In this document: positions 3,464 to 10,189 of the stretch, one piece after another
How positions within the stretch are numbered: the first letter of the stretch is position 1
How the letters are laid out: every line of letters starts with the position of its first letter
From: Draconibacterium sediminis
GTDB taxonomy: Bacteria > Bacteroidota > Bacteroidia > Bacteroidales > Prolixibacteraceae
NCBI RefSeq assembly: GCF_000949475.1
Contig: NZ_JRHC01000001.1
Span: 744,001 to 808,000, forward strand
Direction: 5' to 3'
Length of the DNA: 64,000 nt
Program-made: the position numbers and the translations under genes
Notes under the pieces: model-generated
Database searches by the model: none
Told to the model about the DNA's origin: nothing
What the model saw: the letters and a program-made list of their open reading frames with translations, nothing else

Positions 3464-3615
3464 TTGAATTCGGGTTGCTACAATTGCTAAGATGTTGATA
3501 TTCAGTATTTGGCATGTTTTGGCATTTGTGTTGCTTATTAAAGGGCGTATCCGACCCTAAAGGATACAACAGCTTTTTGAAGAAAAAATTACAAACAAAT
3601 AAACAACACAACATC

Positions 3616-4173
3616 ATGAAAAAAGTTACATTTTTATTAGCAGCGATTTTAGTTCTGGGGGTTTCAAGCATTGCGAAAGCGCAAAAAAGTGATTCACACA
3701 ATTTGAATATTAAAATTGATAAGCAGGCATTGATTGCTATCGAGAGCGAAGGTTCGACTGATATTAGTTTTGACTCAAAAGCTTTTGTTAATGCCGGTGA
3801 AGAAATGACTTTCGCGGCCAGCGGAAGCAACAAGCAGCTGTGGTTAAACTACTCATCAATTGTTGGTACGGGAAGCACCAATACAATTTCTGCTAAAATT
3901 TCGAAATTACCTGAAGGTTTGAAGGTTAATGTAGCAACCAGTGAATCGGCTGCTAATTCATCGAAAAAAGGTAAAACAGGAAAAGGTTATACCGTTGATT
4001 TAACTGAAGGAGGCGTAACCGTTGTAGATAATATTGGAAGTTGTTATACCGGAATCGGTGCAAATAAAGGTCACAAGTTGGAGTATAGCGTTTCAGTTGA
4101 CGACAGTAACTACGAGAAACTGGTAGCCGCAGATCATACACTGGTGGTAACCTATACTATAACAGAGAATTAA
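3616..4173 (+). CDS. Pilin-like secreted subunit A of chaperone-usher-like locus
   Basis: 185 residues with a Sec signal peptide (cleavage after about residue 22, AKAQ). It is homologous to the products at 4294-4857 and 8725-9288. Shared motifs are W-x-NYSS (76-81), a PEGLKV strand (99-104), GKTG near 119-123, IGSCYTG (140-146), GH at 152-153, and a C-terminal alternating strand LVVTYTITEN. The C-terminal strand with a tyrosine near the end, and the alternating hydrophobic N-terminal stretch after the signal peptide, resemble fimbrial subunits joined by donor-strand exchange. That role is inferred. An upstream in-frame start at 3514 is rejected because ATG 3616 directly begins the signal peptide. 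It is first in the locus and followed by a terminator, as expected of a major subunit. Confidence 0.7.
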   Translation: MKKVTFLLAAILVLGVSSIAKAQKSDSHNLNIKIDKQALIAIESEGSTDISFDSKAFVNAGEEMTFAASGSNKQLWLNYSSIVGTGSTNTISAKISKLPEGLKVNVATSESAANSSKKGKTGKGYTVDLTEGGVTVVDNIGSCYTGIGANKGHKLEYSVSVDDSNYEKLVAADHTLVVTYTITEN

Positions 4174-4202
4174 TAAAGGGACAGAGATAAAAAATAAGGG
4201 GT

Positions 4203-4238
4203 GAACGGGTCAATCTACTGATTGGCCCGTTCTTTTTT
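4203..4238 (+). terminator. Terminator after first subunit gene
   Basis: 13-bp stem (4203-4215 with 4220-4232, one G-U pair), 4-nt loop TACT, then six T. It lies between subunit A and subunit B. If leaky, it would make the first subunit the most abundant transcript, as in many fimbrial operons. Confidence 0.85.
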
Positions 4239-4293
4239 GCTGATTTTTTATTCAGCTATTTCTTTTTAGCAGATTTCGCCGTAGATTTAAAAC

Positions 4294-4857
4294 ATGAAGT
4301 TGTTGGACGCAATATCATGTTTGATTTTTCTGGTTCTTTTTTCCTTGGCTGCGAGTGCGCAGGAAAGTATCAGTCATCAATTGGGAATAGATATTCCTGA
4401 AGTGGCTTTGTTGGCCTTACAGTCCGAAAATACCACGGATGTGAATCTTAGTGCTTTGCCGCCCAACACTGCCGGTCAGCAAATCAAAACAAACAAAGAA
4501 GAACAATCAGGCATCTGGATTAACTATTCTTCGGTTGTGAGGAAAAATCAAAAAAGAAAAGTGACAGCAACAGTTGTTGGTGAAATACCAGAGGGAATGG
4601 TGCTAAAAGTAATGGCATCGGAGAGTAGAGGAGAAGGAAAAGGGAAATTGGGAGAATCGTTATCGTGGGTAGCTCTCCGAAATGGTTCGGTTGATGTAAT
4701 CTCAGATATCGGAAGCTGCTATACCGGACGCGGAGCGCAGAATGGCCACTTGCTTACCTATAAAATTGAACTGGATGACGACGCGGATCAGTACGCAAAA
4801 TTGAAACAGTCAGAAACTTCACTGCAAATATTATATACATTAACCGACGACAATTAG
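4294..4857 (+). CDS. Pilin-like secreted subunit B
   Basis: 187 residues with a signal peptide (cleavage near ASAQ, residue 23). It is a paralogue of subunit A, with IWINYSS at 74-80, PEGMVLKV at 99-106, GKGKLG, DIGSCYTG at 138-145, GH at 151-152, and a C-terminal beta-strand SLQILYTLTDDN. A single cysteine at residue 142 is shared with subunit A but is alanine in subunit C, so an intramolecular disulfide is unlikely. Translation likely continues into the periplasmic Ig-like gene 42 bp downstream. Confidence 0.7.
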   Translation: MKLLDAISCLIFLVLFSLAASAQESISHQLGIDIPEVALLALQSENTTDVNLSALPPNTAGQQIKTNKEEQSGIWINYSSVVRKNQKRKVTATVVGEIPEGMVLKVMASESRGEGKGKLGESLSWVALRNGSVDVISDIGSCYTGRGAQNGHLLTYKIELDDDADQYAKLKQSETSLQILYTLTDDN

Positions 4858-4899
4858 TTTTTCATTAGTATTTTTAGCCGAAACTTATAAGTAGCTAAT

Positions 4900-5703
4900 A
4901 TGTTGATGAAAAGGTTTTTTCTCTGTTTTATTCCATTATTATTTATTTCCGGCATTTTTTCGAATAGAAGTTATGCAAATATTGTTGTGTTAAACGGGTT
5001 GACCCACGAAAACATTGCAATGGCCGGAGAGGGTTATCGGGGAGCTATTAAGATTCAAAATACAGGAACGGAACCGCAGAGTGTAAAAGTGTATCAGCGC
5101 GATTATTGGTATGCATTTTCGGGCGAAAGCCGCCACGATGACGCCGGAACCTTGGCACGTTCGAATGCCGCCTGGATAAAATACAGTCCGAATTTGTTTA
5201 CACTCCAGCCTAACGAAACCGCGGTGGTTGATTTTGAAGTGAGTGTTCCGGCCAATGACACACTGAAAGGAACCTACTGGAGCGTGATAATGGTGGAGGG
5301 AATACAGCCTGAAGAAACTGCTGCATCATCGGGTCTGAAAATTCATACCGCCATACGATATGCCGTGCAGGTTGTTACCAATATTGGCAATACCGGAAAA
5401 CGCGATCTGCAGTTTTTGGGCATGGAGCTAACTACCAACGAGGATGAAACACAAGTGCTTAATGTAGCAATTGAAAATACCGGCGAACGACTTTTAAAAC
5501 CTGAACTCAACCTGGAGTTGTTTAATGCTGAAGGAGAATCGATAGGTGTTTTTAAAGCCGAGCGAAGAAAGACTTACCCCACTACTTCTGTTTTATTATC
5601 GTTACCGCTTGAAGGTGTAAAGCCCGGCGAATATGCTGCTGTGCTGATTGCCGATTGTGATGAGGATAATATTTTTGGAACAAATTTAACACTCGAGTTG
5701 TAG
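4900..5703 (+). CDS. Periplasmic Ig-like, pilus chaperone-like protein
   Basis: 267 residues with a signal peptide (about residues 1-26). The mature part begins with beta-strand motifs typical of the N-terminal domain of pilus chaperones: a G1-like run ending in LTLQPNETAVVDFEVSVP (about residues 104-125) and a second domain with NTGERLLKPELNLELF. Pilus chaperones cap subunits in the periplasm and deliver them to an outer-membrane usher. The locus context (three pilin-like genes and a beta-barrel partner) supports this, but sequence similarity to FimC/PapD is only structural in feel. ATG 4906 is an alternative start. It is 2 bp from the next gene, so the two are translationally linked. Confidence 0.55.
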   Translation: MLMKRFFLCFIPLLFISGIFSNRSYANIVVLNGLTHENIAMAGEGYRGAIKIQNTGTEPQSVKVYQRDYWYAFSGESRHDDAGTLARSNAAWIKYSPNLFTLQPNETAVVDFEVSVPANDTLKGTYWSVIMVEGIQPEETAASSGLKIHTAIRYAVQVVTNIGNTGKRDLQFLGMELTTNEDETQVLNVAIENTGERLLKPELNLELFNAEGESIGVFKAERRKTYPTTSVLLSLPLEGVKPGEYAAVLIADCDEDNIFGTNLTLEL

Positions 5704-5705
5704 TT

Positions 5706-8700
5706 ATGCGCATAGAGACAAAGTTGATCTTTTTATTTCTTCTGACTTTGCCTCTTGAGCTTTTGTCTCAGCAAGTTCTGCAAACAACCTTTGTAAAAAA
5801 ACAAGCCCAATCACAGCCGGGAAAAGTTTGTAACATTGCCTTTTTTATTCAGAATAATTCGGAAAATGAGCTGCAGGCGATACCTACCTTTACTTTGCCT
5901 GACGGGTGGAAACTGGTTACCCAAACAAATACTATTCAGCTAAAACCTTCTGAAAAAAAGTTTAATATACTGTCGATGCAGATTCCTGTAGCTTATGCCG
6001 TTGGAAATTATACGGTGGGGGCGCAGTTTAAATCGGTAGTAAACGGTGCTGTTCTGCAACGTGATTCGATAAAAGTGCAGGTTTTAGAGCTTGAAAAAAT
6101 AGATGTCCAAAAACTGGACAAGCCAGACTATGTTTATGCCGGCGAAGAGATTCGTGCCAGCTACCTTCTGCAAAATAGAGGAAATACCGACAAAAGCTTT
6201 TTTATCGAAACCCAGAATTGCCAGGTGGAAGGCGGGGCTGAAGTACGGCTAAAAGTTGGCGAGTCGAAAACCATAACAGTGGTAAAACCTACTTCGGAGG
6301 AATTGGTGAACAGCGAAAGGGAATATTACTCCATCCGCGTAAGTTCCGGAAACCGTGTTTTGCAGAGTGTTAACAGTTGGTCGCAGATATTTCCATCGAA
6401 AAATATGAAAAAGGACCTGTTTTTTCGGTTTCCGGTTTCGGTTTCGGGAACCTACCTGGCAGTTAACAGGGATGAAAAATACGAGTCGACTTACCAACTG
6501 CAGGTCCAGGGGCAGGGAGCTTTAGACGAGGCAGGTAAACATCAGCTGGAGTTTCTGGCACGCGGGCCAAGTAGCACCAATTTGAGCTACCTCGGGTTGT
6601 ACGATCAGTATTACATGATGTACCAAAACCCTAATTTTATGCTATTCGGCGGTCAGAAGAATTATATGTTCACACCATTAACCGAGTCTTCCCGATACGG
6701 AATGGGTGTTGAAAGCCGGGTTCGGTTAAATAATGGTTTGGAGTTGGGATTTACCTATGTCGATCCGCGCTTCTTCGAAGAAATAAAGGACGAAATGGCC
6801 GGTGTGCTGGGGTATCATTTTAATGAGGGTAATAAAGTTGAAGCTTATTACATCTCGAAACAATTTGCGGTTAACGACGACCGGGCACAGTTGGTGAGTT
6901 TAATGTCGGAGTTCTCGCCTTTTAAAGGAACTGATGTTGAGCTGGAACTTTCGCGCGGTTATTTTAATAATGATGCTGACAACGCGTACCGGTTGAACAT
7001 CAACTCGCAGTTTTCGGTGTTTAATGTTGCCGGAAACTACTATAATGCCGGAAAGAATTACCCGGGATATTACAATAACTCAAAGTTTTATTCGGCCAAT
7101 GTTTCAGCAAGGATGAGCAAGAAACTGAATTTAAGTGTATACGCCCGACGCGATTTTATGAATGCACAGCTCGACACCTTTTTTGCAACGGCTCCGATAA
7201 CTGAATCGTATCAGGGAAGTGTTGATTATAAATTAGGTTTGCAAAGTCACCTTAAACTTTTTGTACGACAGTACGAGCGAAAAGACAGGTTGAGTTTTAA
7301 TAAATTTCATTATAAAACGCGTTCGGCAAATATCCGTTTCAGCCAGAAATATCGTTGGATTAGGTACAGTTTAACCGGAGAAGCCGGAAAAACGACCAAC
7401 TTTCTACTCGAACCGGGCGAGAATGAACAAAACAGCTTCAGGGGAACGGGTGATTTTACCATCAAAATAAATTCACGGCATTACATCAGTGCTTTTGGAA
7501 CCTGGTCGAATATCAACGAATTTGTGTCGGGGAAGCAGCAAAATCTAACAGCAGGTTTGTCGGCATCAAGCCAGATATCAGATAATTTTAACGCCAATTT
7601 TTACGTGCAAAACGCTTACGATATCGACGATTATTACAAAAACCGCAACCTGATGCAGCTCAGCCTTAATTACAATTTCCTGAAAAGCCATAGCATTTCG
7701 CTGCGTAGTTTCTACACCATTTTTAAAACCGAACTTGAAGAGGCCGAGTTTACCCTTTCGGCCACTTATGCCTACAAATTTGGTGTGCCGCTTAAGCAGG
7801 TAATAAAAGCCGGTGTTATCAGTGGTAGGGTAAGCAACGAGCAAGGCGAACCGGTTGAGGGCGTTTGGGTGCGACTGCTAAATCAAACGGCAGTTACCGA
7901 TAAAAACGGGGTTTATACGTTTGATTTAGTGCGGCCGGGAACACATTTGGTTTCGTTTGACGAAAGTAATTTTCAACTTGATGAATTAACAAATATTCCC
8001 AACCCGGTGGAAGTGAATGTTTTTGAAGATCAGGTTTCAACTATCGATGTACGGATTTTAAAAGGTGCCGTGCTCAAAGGAAAAATTCTACTCGAGGAAG
8101 CCAGATTAAAAGCAGCCGCAGATGAAAATGCCACTCCGGCGAACATCATTATCGAGGCAAAATCAGCGCTGGATGAATACCGGATAACCACCGAAAAAGA
8201 TGGATCATTTGTATTTCCATTGCTAAAACCGGGTGAGTTTACTTTTGAAATCTACGCCAATTCAATTCCGGGCGGGTATAAAATCGATCAATTGGAATAT
8301 AAGTTTTCGCTCTCCGAAGGCGAAACCAAAGAAATGGAGATTGTACTGCCCACCAAAAAGAACAATATAATTTTTAAGCCAGCCGGAAATACGATGCTAA
8401 AAAGTGGTTTAGGATTGAAGTTACAGTCGGAAGCAAAGAAGAAGGAACCTGAAGTATCGGAAGATGAAACGTTTTACAGTATACAGATTGGGGCTTTTAG
8501 CCGGAAGATTCCTGATGGAGATCCGTTTTTTCAGAATGAGCAGTTTTATTTCGAAAAACAAATTGATAACTTACACAAATATTATATTGGGCGCTATCCG
8601 GATAAAAAAACAGCGAGAAAAGAGCTAGGCCGATTAAAGGTTAAATTCAGTAATCCGTTTATAGTTGTGTTTGATAAGGGACAGGTATTTAACTTGTACC

Positions 8701-8714
8701 GTTACAAAAAATAG
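5706..8714 (+). CDS. Usher-like outer-membrane beta-barrel with C-terminal SPOR domain
   Basis: 1002 residues. Signal peptide 1-21; two Ig/NEW3-like domains about 22-230; a long beta-barrel-like region about 235-700 rich in alternating aromatic strands; two carboxypeptidase-regulatory (transthyretin-like) modules about 704-760 and 789-865; and a SPOR-like domain about 922-1002 (FYSIQIGAF to the C-terminus). Barrel plus transthyretin-like C-terminal domains is the plan of chaperone-usher ushers, and the neighbours are pilin- and chaperone-like. I therefore infer an usher that exports the subunits. The SPOR module, which binds denuded peptidoglycan in known proteins, is not part of any usher I know. 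A non-usher porin or assembly barrel is the alternative. Confidence 0.55.
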   Translation: MRIETKLIFLFLLTLPLELLSQQVLQTTFVKKQAQSQPGKVCNIAFFIQNNSENELQAIPTFTLPDGWKLVTQTNTIQLKPSEKKFNILSMQIPVAYAVGNYTVGAQFKSVVNGAVLQRDSIKVQVLELEKIDVQKLDKPDYVYAGEEIRASYLLQNRGNTDKSFFIETQNCQVEGGAEVRLKVGESKTITVVKPTSEELVNSEREYYSIRVSSGNRVLQSVNSWSQIFPSKNMKKDLFFRFPVSVSGTYLAVNRDEKYESTYQLQVQGQGALDEAGKHQLEFLARGPSSTNLSYLGLYDQYYMMYQNPNFMLFGGQKNYMFTPLTESSRYGMGVESRVRLNNGLELGFTYVDPRFFEEIKDEMAGVLGYHFNEGNKVEAYYISKQFAVNDDRAQLVSLMSEFSPFKGTDVELELSRGYFNNDADNAYRLNINSQFSVFNVAGNYYNAGKNYPGYYNNSKFYSANVSARMSKKLNLSVYARRDFMNAQLDTFFATAPITESYQGSVDYKLGLQSHLKLFVRQYERKDRLSFNKFHYKTRSANIRFSQKYRWIRYSLTGEAGKTTNFLLEPGENEQNSFRGTGDFTIKINSRHYISAFGTWSNINEFVSGKQQNLTAGLSASSQISDNFNANFYVQNAYDIDDYYKNRNLMQLSLNYNFLKSHSISLRSFYTIFKTELEEAEFTLSATYAYKFGVPLKQVIKAGVISGRVSNEQGEPVEGVWVRLLNQTAVTDKNGVYTFDLVRPGTHLVSFDESNFQLDELTNIPNPVEVNVFEDQVSTIDVRILKGAVLKGKILLEEARLKAAADENATPANIIIEAKSALDEYRITTEKDGSFVFPLLKPGEFTFEIYANSIPGGYKIDQLEYKFSLSEGETKEMEIVLPTKKNNIIFKPAGNTMLKSGLGLKLQSEAKKKEPEVSEDETFYSIQIGAFSRKIPDGDPFFQNEQFYFEKQIDNLHKYYIGRYPDKKTARKELGRLKVKFSNPFIVVFDKGQVFNLYRYKK

Positions 8715-8724
8715 GACAAAAGAA

Positions 8725-9288
8725 ATGAAGACAATAACTACCATAATAGTTGCTTTGTTATTGGGGCTGGTGTTGTGCCGGAATGCCAGCGCGCAGTTTG
8801 ATGAAAAAAATGTTCATATTGGATTTTCGCTTCCCGAAGTGGCTTTAATGGATGTTGAATACATTGGAAACGGGACCATCGAGTTTGAACTTTTGCCTGC
8901 TGCCGAATCTGGTGGATCTCCGGTGATACGTCAGTTAACATCACAGGAATTCTGGATTAACTATTCATCAGCATTAGGTAAATTCAGTCCCGATCGGTCA
9001 ATTGTGGCGCAGATCGCGGGAGGAACTGTGCCCGAAGGTCTGGAGTTGTATATTCTGGCTGCCGATTATTCGGGTAATGGGGAAGGAAAGACAGGTGCTT
9101 CAGCCGGTAAGGTGTTGGTTGGGAGCGATCCACGGCCAATAATAACCGGTATTGGAAGCGCTTATACCGGCAACGGAATTGGCAACGGGCACCAGCTAAA
9201 TTTCGAGATCGATATTAGCCAAATGGAAAAGGTTTCGGCAAGCGGCTCACACGATTTTACCATTTTGTATACCTTAACCGATAACTAA
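8725..9288 (+). CDS. Pilin-like secreted subunit C
   Basis: 187 residues, signal peptide cleaved near ASAQ (residue 24). It is a paralogue of subunits A and B: FWINYSS (76-82), PEGLELYI (103-110), GKTG (121-124), GIGSAYTG (142-149), GH (155-156), C-terminal strand DFTILYTLTDN. The cysteine of A and B is replaced by alanine. It starts 10 bp after the usher-like gene and is in the same operon. An upstream in-frame start inside the preceding gene is rejected. Position after the usher suggests a minor or tip subunit (inference). Confidence 0.7.
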   Translation: MKTITTIIVALLLGLVLCRNASAQFDEKNVHIGFSLPEVALMDVEYIGNGTIEFELLPAAESGGSPVIRQLTSQEFWINYSSALGKFSPDRSIVAQIAGGTVPEGLELYILAADYSGNGEGKTGASAGKVLVGSDPRPIITGIGSAYTGNGIGNGHQLNFEIDISQMEKVSASGSHDFTILYTLTDN

Positions 9289-9292
9289 TAGT

Positions 9293-9787
9293 ATGAAACG
9301 TTTTTCCTTTTTAATAGTGCTGTGTTTTTTTGCCTTTGGTATTTATGCCCAGGGTTTACAGTTGGCATTAACAGGCATGGTAACTTTTAACGAGGTGCAG
9401 ATAAAAGTTAGCGATCCGGGTGAGGATATAGAAGCAGTAATTACAGCTAATTCGGGCGTTCAGTTATCGGTAGAATCACAGAATTATTGGGAGCAGAATA
9501 ATGAAAAGTGGCGCATTTATGTGCACAAAACCAATGTGGAATGGGCAGATGAAATTAGGCTGGAGGTAAGACGTCAGGGCGATGGCGATAAATTAAATAA
9601 AAAGAGTGGAGGCAATGTACATGATGGATCCACTTTTGCGGAAATTAAAGACAATCCCACTTATTTTTTCCGTGGAATGGGATTGATTTCAAACATTCCG
9701 CTGGATTTCAGAATTAACGATATTTCGTTGTCGTTGGGAGCCAACAATTTTGAAACCGATGTGGTTTTTACCATTTATGATGATTAA
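9293..9787 (+). CDS. Small secreted beta-rich protein of the pilin-like locus
   Basis: 164 residues with a signal peptide (about 1-19, ending IYAQ). Predicted to be mostly beta-strand. The C-terminus (TDVVFTIYDD) has alternating hydrophobic residues and a tyrosine three from the end, like the three pilin-like subunits, but the W-x-NYSS and YTG motifs are missing. It starts 4 bp after subunit C. It could be a divergent tip adhesin or an initiating subunit. Its family is not recognised. Confidence 0.55.
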   Translation: MKRFSFLIVLCFFAFGIYAQGLQLALTGMVTFNEVQIKVSDPGEDIEAVITANSGVQLSVESQNYWEQNNEKWRIYVHKTNVEWADEIRLEVRRQGDGDKLNKKSGGNVHDGSTFAEIKDNPTYFFRGMGLISNIPLDFRINDISLSLGANNFETDVVFTIYDD

Positions 9788-9853
9788 CTTTATCGATAGT
9801 AAAGCGTTCTTGCTGAATAAGAAATCTTAACTTAGGAAAAAAGTAGTGAGCAC

Positions 9854-10189
9854 ATGCGAAAACTTCTCTACATAGCTCTTTTTATTGTTGCCATGCTGGC
9901 TTGCGAAGATCGCGAGCCGGAGCCAATTATTGTACCCAGTTGGATGAAAGCACAACTTGCTGAACTTGAAGATTCGGGCAATTGTTACGGGTGTAGGGTG
10001 CAGCGCTGGACCTACAACGAAGAATATTTCTATCACCTTTACTGCGATCACTGGTCGTGTTCCAATTGCGAAGTTTATCACAATAACGGAACTCTTGTGG
10101 AGTGGGGTGTTACGGTTGATCCGGTTGATTTTGATTCACTCAAGTATCGCCCCACCATAGTTTGGGAGTGTGGCGATGAACTGGAATAG
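9854..10189 (+). CDS. Small cysteine-rich lipoprotein
   Basis: 111 residues with a lipobox ending at C17 (MLAC). The mature part is acidic and has six further cysteines, including CYGC, CDHWSCSNC and a late WECG, which suggests disulfides or a small metal site. It is 66 bp after the pilin-like locus on the same strand and may belong to it. No family is recognised. The second minus-strand and plus-strand frames here are shadows. Confidence 0.5.
   Translation: MRKLLYIALFIVAMLACEDREPEPIIVPSWMKAQLAELEDSGNCYGCRVQRWTYNEEYFYHLYCDHWSCSNCEVYHNNGTLVEWGVTVDPVDFDSLKYRPTIVWECGDELE

Follow-up and report, generated by a model that had tools for sequence, protein, structure and literature searches.

A 64,000-nucleotide stretch of the Draconibacterium sediminis genome (GCF_000949475.1, contig NZ_JRHC01000001.1, positions 744,001-808,000 of the forward strand; hereafter the window, to which all coordinates refer) carries on its + strand a unit of six genes (3616-9787) whose most likely role is to build hair-like fibres on the cell surface; the putative fibre would leave the cell through a putative outer-membrane pore. 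The unit runs P1, P2, CHP, USH, P3 and X6 and is followed by X7 (Table 1), all of these being names coined for this analysis. The open reading frames lie where an original prediction, made from the DNA letters, had described them, and neither Pfam nor NCBIfam holds a family fitting the system, in agreement with the suggestion made then that no known chaperone-usher subtype is matched. We think it probable that the locus acts like a chaperone-usher system and yet belongs to none of the subtypes described.

Table 1. Features of the locus, with window coordinates and the basis of each assignment
Feature	Position	Strand	Basis
P1, shaft-pilin candidate, 185 aa	3616..4173	+	frame 3514-4173, ATG at 3616; alignment
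Intrinsic-terminator-like hairpin directly 3' of P1	4203..4232	+	13-bp stem, T run, folding energy
P2, pilin-like subunit, 187 aa	4294..4857	+	alignment; AlphaFold2 model
CHP, two-Ig-domain periplasmic chaperone candidate, 267 aa	4900..5703	+	profile comparisons, Pfam scans of family
USH, usher candidate, 1002 aa	5706..8714	+	Pfam, alignment
Ig/NEW3-like N-terminal part of USH, residues ~22-232	5769..6401	+	hhalign, Pfam
Barrel-like part of USH, residues ~233-699	6402..7802	+	alignment, Pfam, strand count by eye
Two transthyretin-like (CarboxypepD_reg/SpaA) domains of USH	7803..8360	+	Pfam
SPOR tail of USH	8466..8675	+	Pfam SPOR, family profile
P3, pilin-like subunit, 187 aa	8725..9288	+	frame 8665-9288, ATG at 8725; alignment
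X6, fourth, divergent subunit, 164 aa	9293..9787	+	hhalign to pilins
X7, Cys-rich lipoprotein-like neighbour	9854..10189	+	present in 17/26 loci

Conservation of the unit and its pilin-like subunits

The relative of USH in the nearest named record, from an uncultured Draconibacterium, is 92% identical, and long matches (E 4e-105 or better) occur in 28 of 101 genomes searched, that of the window included; a larger tally of 43 USH-matching genomes includes matches to the SPOR tail only. Among 26 loci, comprising the flanks of 25 of the 28 long-match loci together with L006, the order pilin-CHP-USH-P3-X6 is intact in 23, and the remaining three (L058, L059, L060) run into contig ends. X6 is found wherever the contig extends, except in L058, whose contig is long enough to show that X6 is missing. 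The order recurs in other classes of the phylum; the spread of the unit had been proposed as a check. X7, a 111-amino-acid cysteine-rich lipoprotein-like protein, is confined to 17 of these loci, all within the genus of the window, and in L046 sits behind opposite-strand reading frames; it is therefore probably a neighbour, and its inclusion in the unit was considered and dropped.

The three pilin-like proteins are indeed paralogues, the P1 and P3 products being respectively 35% and 32% identical to that of P2. An alignment of 44 subunits bears out the common features described for them, a W-x-NYSS motif, an IGS(C/A)YTG strand and a C-terminal strand with a tyrosine: W75, N77, Y78, S80, I139, G140 and G145 are conserved in at least 90% of sequences, while G120, T144, G151 and the last-strand tyrosine, Y181, are invariant in all 44. 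Read by eye, the subunit signal peptides end in AQ and have no lipobox. X6, one of two extra secreted proteins originally assigned to the unit, is on profile comparison a fourth, divergent subunit of the same kin (hhalign 95.4% and 96.5%, E 1.9e-8 and 9e-10; hhalign values here and throughout refer to individual pairs and take no account of secondary structure). An X6 profile grown by iteration absorbed the pilins, and so the initial X6 alignment was used for these comparisons. None of P1, P2, P3 and X6 matches a Pfam or NCBIfam family above cut-off, the pilin profile finds nothing below E 0.085 among solved structures (its best match is unrelated), and no subunit matches a WxL domain in Pfam at E<=1. 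Up to four P1-like copies lie 5' in relatives. In L047 (11579-16468) four tandem P1-like genes alternate with partial copies of the upstream gene D3109, forming a repeated duplication unit.

An AlphaFold2 model of P2, built from six sequences of the window and L006, reached a mean pLDDT of 63.7 and a pTM of 0.61, with residues 1-70 averaging 31-53. The highest-ranking VIA-align row for it covers residues 201-359 of 6k73_C (Z 6.2, rmsd 3.3, 108 aligned), in our reading the pilin domain of the tip protein of CFA/I. The model suggests a beta-sandwich compatible with a pilin and nothing beyond that.

The hairpin behind P1 has a folding energy of -22.7 kcal/mol (z -5.5), in a region where terminator-like sites are as numerous (7) as in shuffled sequence (7.2). 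Of 21 loci, 17 have a counterpart 21-38 bases inside the gap that separates the two last upstream pilin genes; in L037-L039 the best hairpin overlaps the P2 start and could be due to chance, and L056 has none. The mostly shorter gap before CHP contains a hairpin in two of the 21.

The chaperone family and the barrels beside it

The firmest part of the case for a chaperone-usher reading is the chaperone. When a 25-row family profile of CHP was compared with solved structures, the sole match below E 10 was the WxL-interacting protein (WxLIP) EfmWxLIP1 (two chains, 2.2e-5), and a 32-row profile drawn from the phylum matched the same protein at E 4.6e-15, spanning both immunoglobulin (Ig) domains, so that the Ig-like, chaperone-like protein predicted at 4900 now has a solved two-Ig counterpart. 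Scanned singly against Pfam (E<=0.1), 12 of 32 family members touched WxLIP_PGBD, six PapD_N and four WxLIP_HBD. The WxLIP_HBD cut-off (28.9) was passed by two members, L095 (36.2) and L103 (30.8), which belong to window-type operons with pilins, USH and X6; that of PapD_N (23) by one, L117 (29.0); that of fn3_5 by the L115 chaperone; and that of WxLIP_PGBD by none of the 32 (best 22.6 against 27.3). CHP of the window itself passes neither WxLIP cut-off and has no PapD_N match in Pfam, while its 25-row profile retrieves the L117 chaperone at E 9e-8.

Comparison with a profile of seven E. coli chaperones gave hhalign values of 78.3% for the broad family (79.4% without L117), 87.1% for the L113-L117/L124 members and 85.7% for those of L108-L110, the last over 212 columns reaching the C-terminal D-Y-G. 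The window chaperone family in turn matches the chaperones of L108-L110 at 99.7% and those of L113-L117/L124 at 98.9%. As a benchmark, known relatives can also score low, classical against ECP chaperones giving 6.8%. On these profile comparisons the link of the family to WxLIP is direct, and its link to PapD is a chain that passes through distant relatives. The predicted G1 region of CHP (around 147-158) shows alternating hydrophobic residues, with R153, Y154 and Q157 invariant in 25 rows, and by eye Y154 falls on a tyrosine of the L117 chaperone; the donor motif of the archaic chaperone CsuC begins with a conserved tyrosine (PMC4654587).

The 25-row profile finds relatives of CHP in 32 of 395 genomes of the phylum (20 of 171 genera), and the 32-row profile, which contains rows from some of the same genomes, in 130 (48 genera). 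We inspected 31 further neighbourhoods, 30 of the 35 outside matches of the 25-row profile plus L124, which was picked for a sub-threshold Usher hit. A barrel-candidate gene of 910-1340 amino acids adjoins the chaperone in 27 of them (that of L092 is cut off), and most of these loci also encode small secreted proteins, either matched by the pilin profile or of similar appearance. The barrels beside the family are of three kinds: that of the window; that of L108-L110, which matches the window barrel at 98.7% (E 1.5e-16); and that of L113-L117 with L124, which matches E. coli ushers at 95.7% (E 9.2e-9, 216 columns). L117 additionally has a DUF4402 subunit. Since some family members adjoin barrels with a match to E. 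coli ushers, the place behind the chaperone gene appears to be that of an usher; and since the same chaperone family serves window-type and E. coli-type barrels in one slot, the case for USH is positional, its usher role being suggested by gene order.

In USH, CarboxypepD_reg and SpaA score above their Pfam cut-offs (best stretches 705-765 and 824-878), and so the transthyretin-like modules of the original description stand. A model of residues 228-702 with one relative had a pLDDT of 27.8 and was not used. By eye, the barrel-like part has 24-26 strands; a count from hydrophobic alternation was dropped, as it missed 24 even for FimD. Within residues 233-699 there is no Pfam domain above cut-off and no insert in the family alignment that might be a plug. 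At E<=0.1, 12 of 26 usher candidates touch NPCBM_assoc (NEW3). Three of 26 barrels touch the usher C-terminal family CooC_C (best 1.3e-5), with scores below cut-off in L096 (26.7 against 29) and in USH of the window (15.2).

At the end of USH lies the SPOR-like domain that had been predicted, with 22.9 bits against a Pfam cut-off of 21 (PF05036); its family profile matches the CwlC SPOR structure 1x60 at E 0.0016, and the region is present in 25 of 27 window-family rows, L057 and L058 being without it. Among 26 usher candidates outside the window family with a readable C-terminus, nine have a putative peptidoglycan-binding tail above cut-off, either SPOR (L093, L105, L111, L113, L114, L115) or LysM (L102, L112, L120); L091 falls just short for SPOR (18.4 against 21) and was scored as tailless. 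On a rapidly built tree of 41 chaperones, for which the rows of the window family were thinned (L006 represents the window) and of which 34 have a tail state, this state changes at least five times; the count is rough, with 13 of the 38 inner branches open and several long rows.

A proposed fibre assembly system and its alternatives

In proposing a mechanism, we regard the locus as probably a Bacteroidota unit for fibre assembly of the chaperone-usher type, one that lies outside the classical, alternative and archaic classes and has a wall-anchored usher. P1, P2, P3 and X6 would exit the cytoplasm by means of their signal peptides and be held in the periplasm by CHP, whose first Ig domain would lend the G1 strand, with R153, Y154 and Q157, to an incomplete subunit fold. 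The Ig-like N-terminus of USH would take in the CHP-subunit complexes, the chaperone strand would give way to the N-terminal extension of the subunit that follows, and the growing fibre would pass out through the USH barrel, with the transthyretin-like domains serving as usher C-terminal domains and perhaps also in place of the missing plug. SPOR domains bind peptidoglycan stripped of its stem peptides, and so the tail may pin the usher to the cell wall. P1 would be made in excess if, as its hairpin suggests, most transcripts stop there by attenuation.

Several results weigh against this reading. No fibres have been seen to date. The P2 model has no Foldseek match at E<=0.001, and virus capsids with jelly rolls rank within one Z unit of 6k73_C, where Z values of this size are common; the fold prediction proposed for the subunits thus returned a beta-sandwich and did not tell a pilin from a viral jelly roll. 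For the chaperone, no PapD-type chain is among the PDB matches at E<=10 of either the 25-row or the 32-row profile, the commonest Pfam touch is fn3_5 (19 of 32), the window-family profile alone matches E. coli chaperones at 0.8%, and leaving out the L113-L117/L124 rows lowers the value of the broad profile from 78.3% to 2.7%. CHP also matches the N-terminus of USH at 92.6%, showing that Ig pairs cross-match. Neither the classical nor the archaic anchor residues were seen in CHP by eye: the classical class has two basic anchor residues, in strands A1 and G1, and the position of the G1 lysine is occupied by Gln157, invariant in 25 rows, and W127 lies near the place of the D1 arginine, CsuC Arg89, which anchors the subunit C-terminus in the archaic/alternative class (PMC4654587). 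Finally, four of the 31 further loci (L099, L101, L107, L119) have no barrel gene.

The usher candidate contributes the rest. USH has no match to Pfam Usher (PF00577) at E<=1; in the genome search G000 had no match, none of 198 genomes scored above cut-off, and the one sub-threshold hit was L124. The USH barrel matches a profile of six E. coli ushers at 14.1% (E 0.0019; 9.7% with a narrower profile) and the Bacteroidota usher group at 2.1 and 0.3%. The L108-L110 barrels match E. coli ushers at 0.1%, where the chain of barrels therefore breaks, and pooling them with the window family brought no gain in the match to ushers (13.0%). Reversed-usher profiles gave 0.4-0.6%, so the 14% exceeds its like-for-like control and yet remains non-significant; classical against ECP ushers, as a benchmark, gave only 23.5%. 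Single LptD, BamA, FhuA and OmpF sequences reached at most 1.6% and single E. coli ushers 0.1-1.2%, so single ushers score like single porins. The comparison with ushers that the original prediction had called for accordingly yields no usher match, and no porin or BamA match in these single-sequence controls either. Of the two outcomes that the prediction had named as refuting it, neither was reached.

The chaperone results bear equally on another explanation, in which the locus corresponds, in a Gram-negative cell, to the WxL system: a WxLIP-like partner would stabilise small beta-sandwich proteins, coating the cell surface or wall, that USH exports and anchors, and no polymer would form. Among solved structures the chaperone profiles match only EfmWxLIP1 significantly, the WxLIP_HBD cut-off is passed within window-type operons, WxLIP_PGBD is touched by more members than PapD_N, and a strand of WxLIP is predicted to be inserted into WxL (PMC10599100). 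Against these stand the lack of any WxL-domain match among the subunits, the failure of every member to pass WxLIP_PGBD, the relatives that adjoin barrels matching E. coli ushers, one of them with a DUF4402 subunit, and the multiplication of P1 with a hairpin of its own; we consider this explanation unlikely. It is more improbable still that the genes form only a loose group, encoding secreted beta-sandwich proteins beside an outer-membrane channel of generic type that has transthyretin-like and SPOR domains: sequence does not prove the barrel an usher and the pilin model is undiscriminating, but the gene order is kept in nearly all loci and recurs in other classes, and X6 is akin to the pilins. 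A type V (FimA/Mfa1-like) pilus locus, in which lipoprotein subunits polymerise after protease cleavage, would share the phylum and a beta-sandwich subunit and is scarcely credible given signal peptides without a lipobox, no fimbrillin family among the Pfam matches, and an Ig chaperone and usher candidate that type V loci are not known to have.

The chaperone-usher reading places the locus close to the archaic (Csu-like) and alternative (CFA/I, ECP) pili, with which it shares small secreted subunits, a two-Ig chaperone candidate joined to the PapD family by a chain of relatives and a large outer-membrane protein with transthyretin-like C-terminal domains. It differs from them in having no Pfam Usher match, no visible plug-like insert and no visible anchor residues, and in the Ig-like N-terminus and SPOR tail of USH. 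The WxL/WxLIP clusters of Gram-positive bacteria, whose WxLIP combines DUF916 (PGBD) with DUF3324 (HBD), have a similar two-Ig partner, matched across two domains, and differ in having neither outer membrane nor usher. Within Bacteroidota, the L113-L117/L124 barrels share with USH the chaperone family, the operon slot, C-terminal transthyretin-like touches and, in L113-L115, SPOR tails; they have an E. coli-type barrel part with a plug (our own reading), and the window barrel does not match theirs. The type V pili of P. gingivalis (FimA/Mfa1) belong to the same phylum and have beta-sandwich subunits, which are made as lipoprotein precursors and assembled by protease-driven exchange; no chaperone or usher is known in that system.

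Chaperone-usher pili have been described in Proteobacteria and a small number of further phyla. PMC4654587 lists archaic systems for Proteobacteria, Cyanobacteria and Deinococcus-Thermus, and Bacteroidota are not on that list; according to PMC5789003, very little is known about the assembly of Bacteroidota fimbriae. The literature we covered, which included few subscription journals and preprints, held no Bacteroidota chaperone-usher system, SPOR-tailed usher or kinship between WxLIP and pilus chaperones. As one end of the family passes WxLIP_HBD and the other PapD_N, it might be the missing middle between the Gram-negative PapD chaperones and the Gram-positive WxLIP, with a strand-lending chaperone-subunit pair older than the envelope split and, in Bacteroidota, a new class of usher repeatedly tied to the wall by SPOR or LysM; we offer this wider proposal tentatively and incline somewhat against it. 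If true, the WxLIP link would join two systems between which that literature draws no connection, and wall-anchored ushers would explain how a pore in a fluid membrane withstands the pull of a fibre. With the chaperone family matched in a third of the sampled genomes, only some of whose neighbourhoods were inspected, fibre assembly in Bacteroidota would become testable.

Neighbouring genes and other observations

Chaperone family members also occur without pilin or barrel genes (L099, L101, L119), and in L099 and L101 the neighbours are presumably response-regulator-like and PIG-L-like genes. Secreted proteins of 992-1384 amino acids lie 5' of the pilins in L097, L098, L104 and L111, with ends that by eye resemble type IX secretion system cargo. 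Scans of viral contigs found no relative of USH or of the pilins and one of CHP (L131, 300-7079, on an IMG/VR contig), which borders phage-like genes and is followed by a reading frame that ends at 100 amino acids. The locus in the window is flanked by genes that, judged from their sequences, are phosphoglycerate mutase-like on one side and glyoxalase-like on the other. Upstream of P1 (3410-3470) there are three TGTCCC motifs (3410, 3428, 3448) and an inverted GGGAC, possibly an operator; the whole window has 10 and 4 copies of the TGTCCC motif on its two strands.

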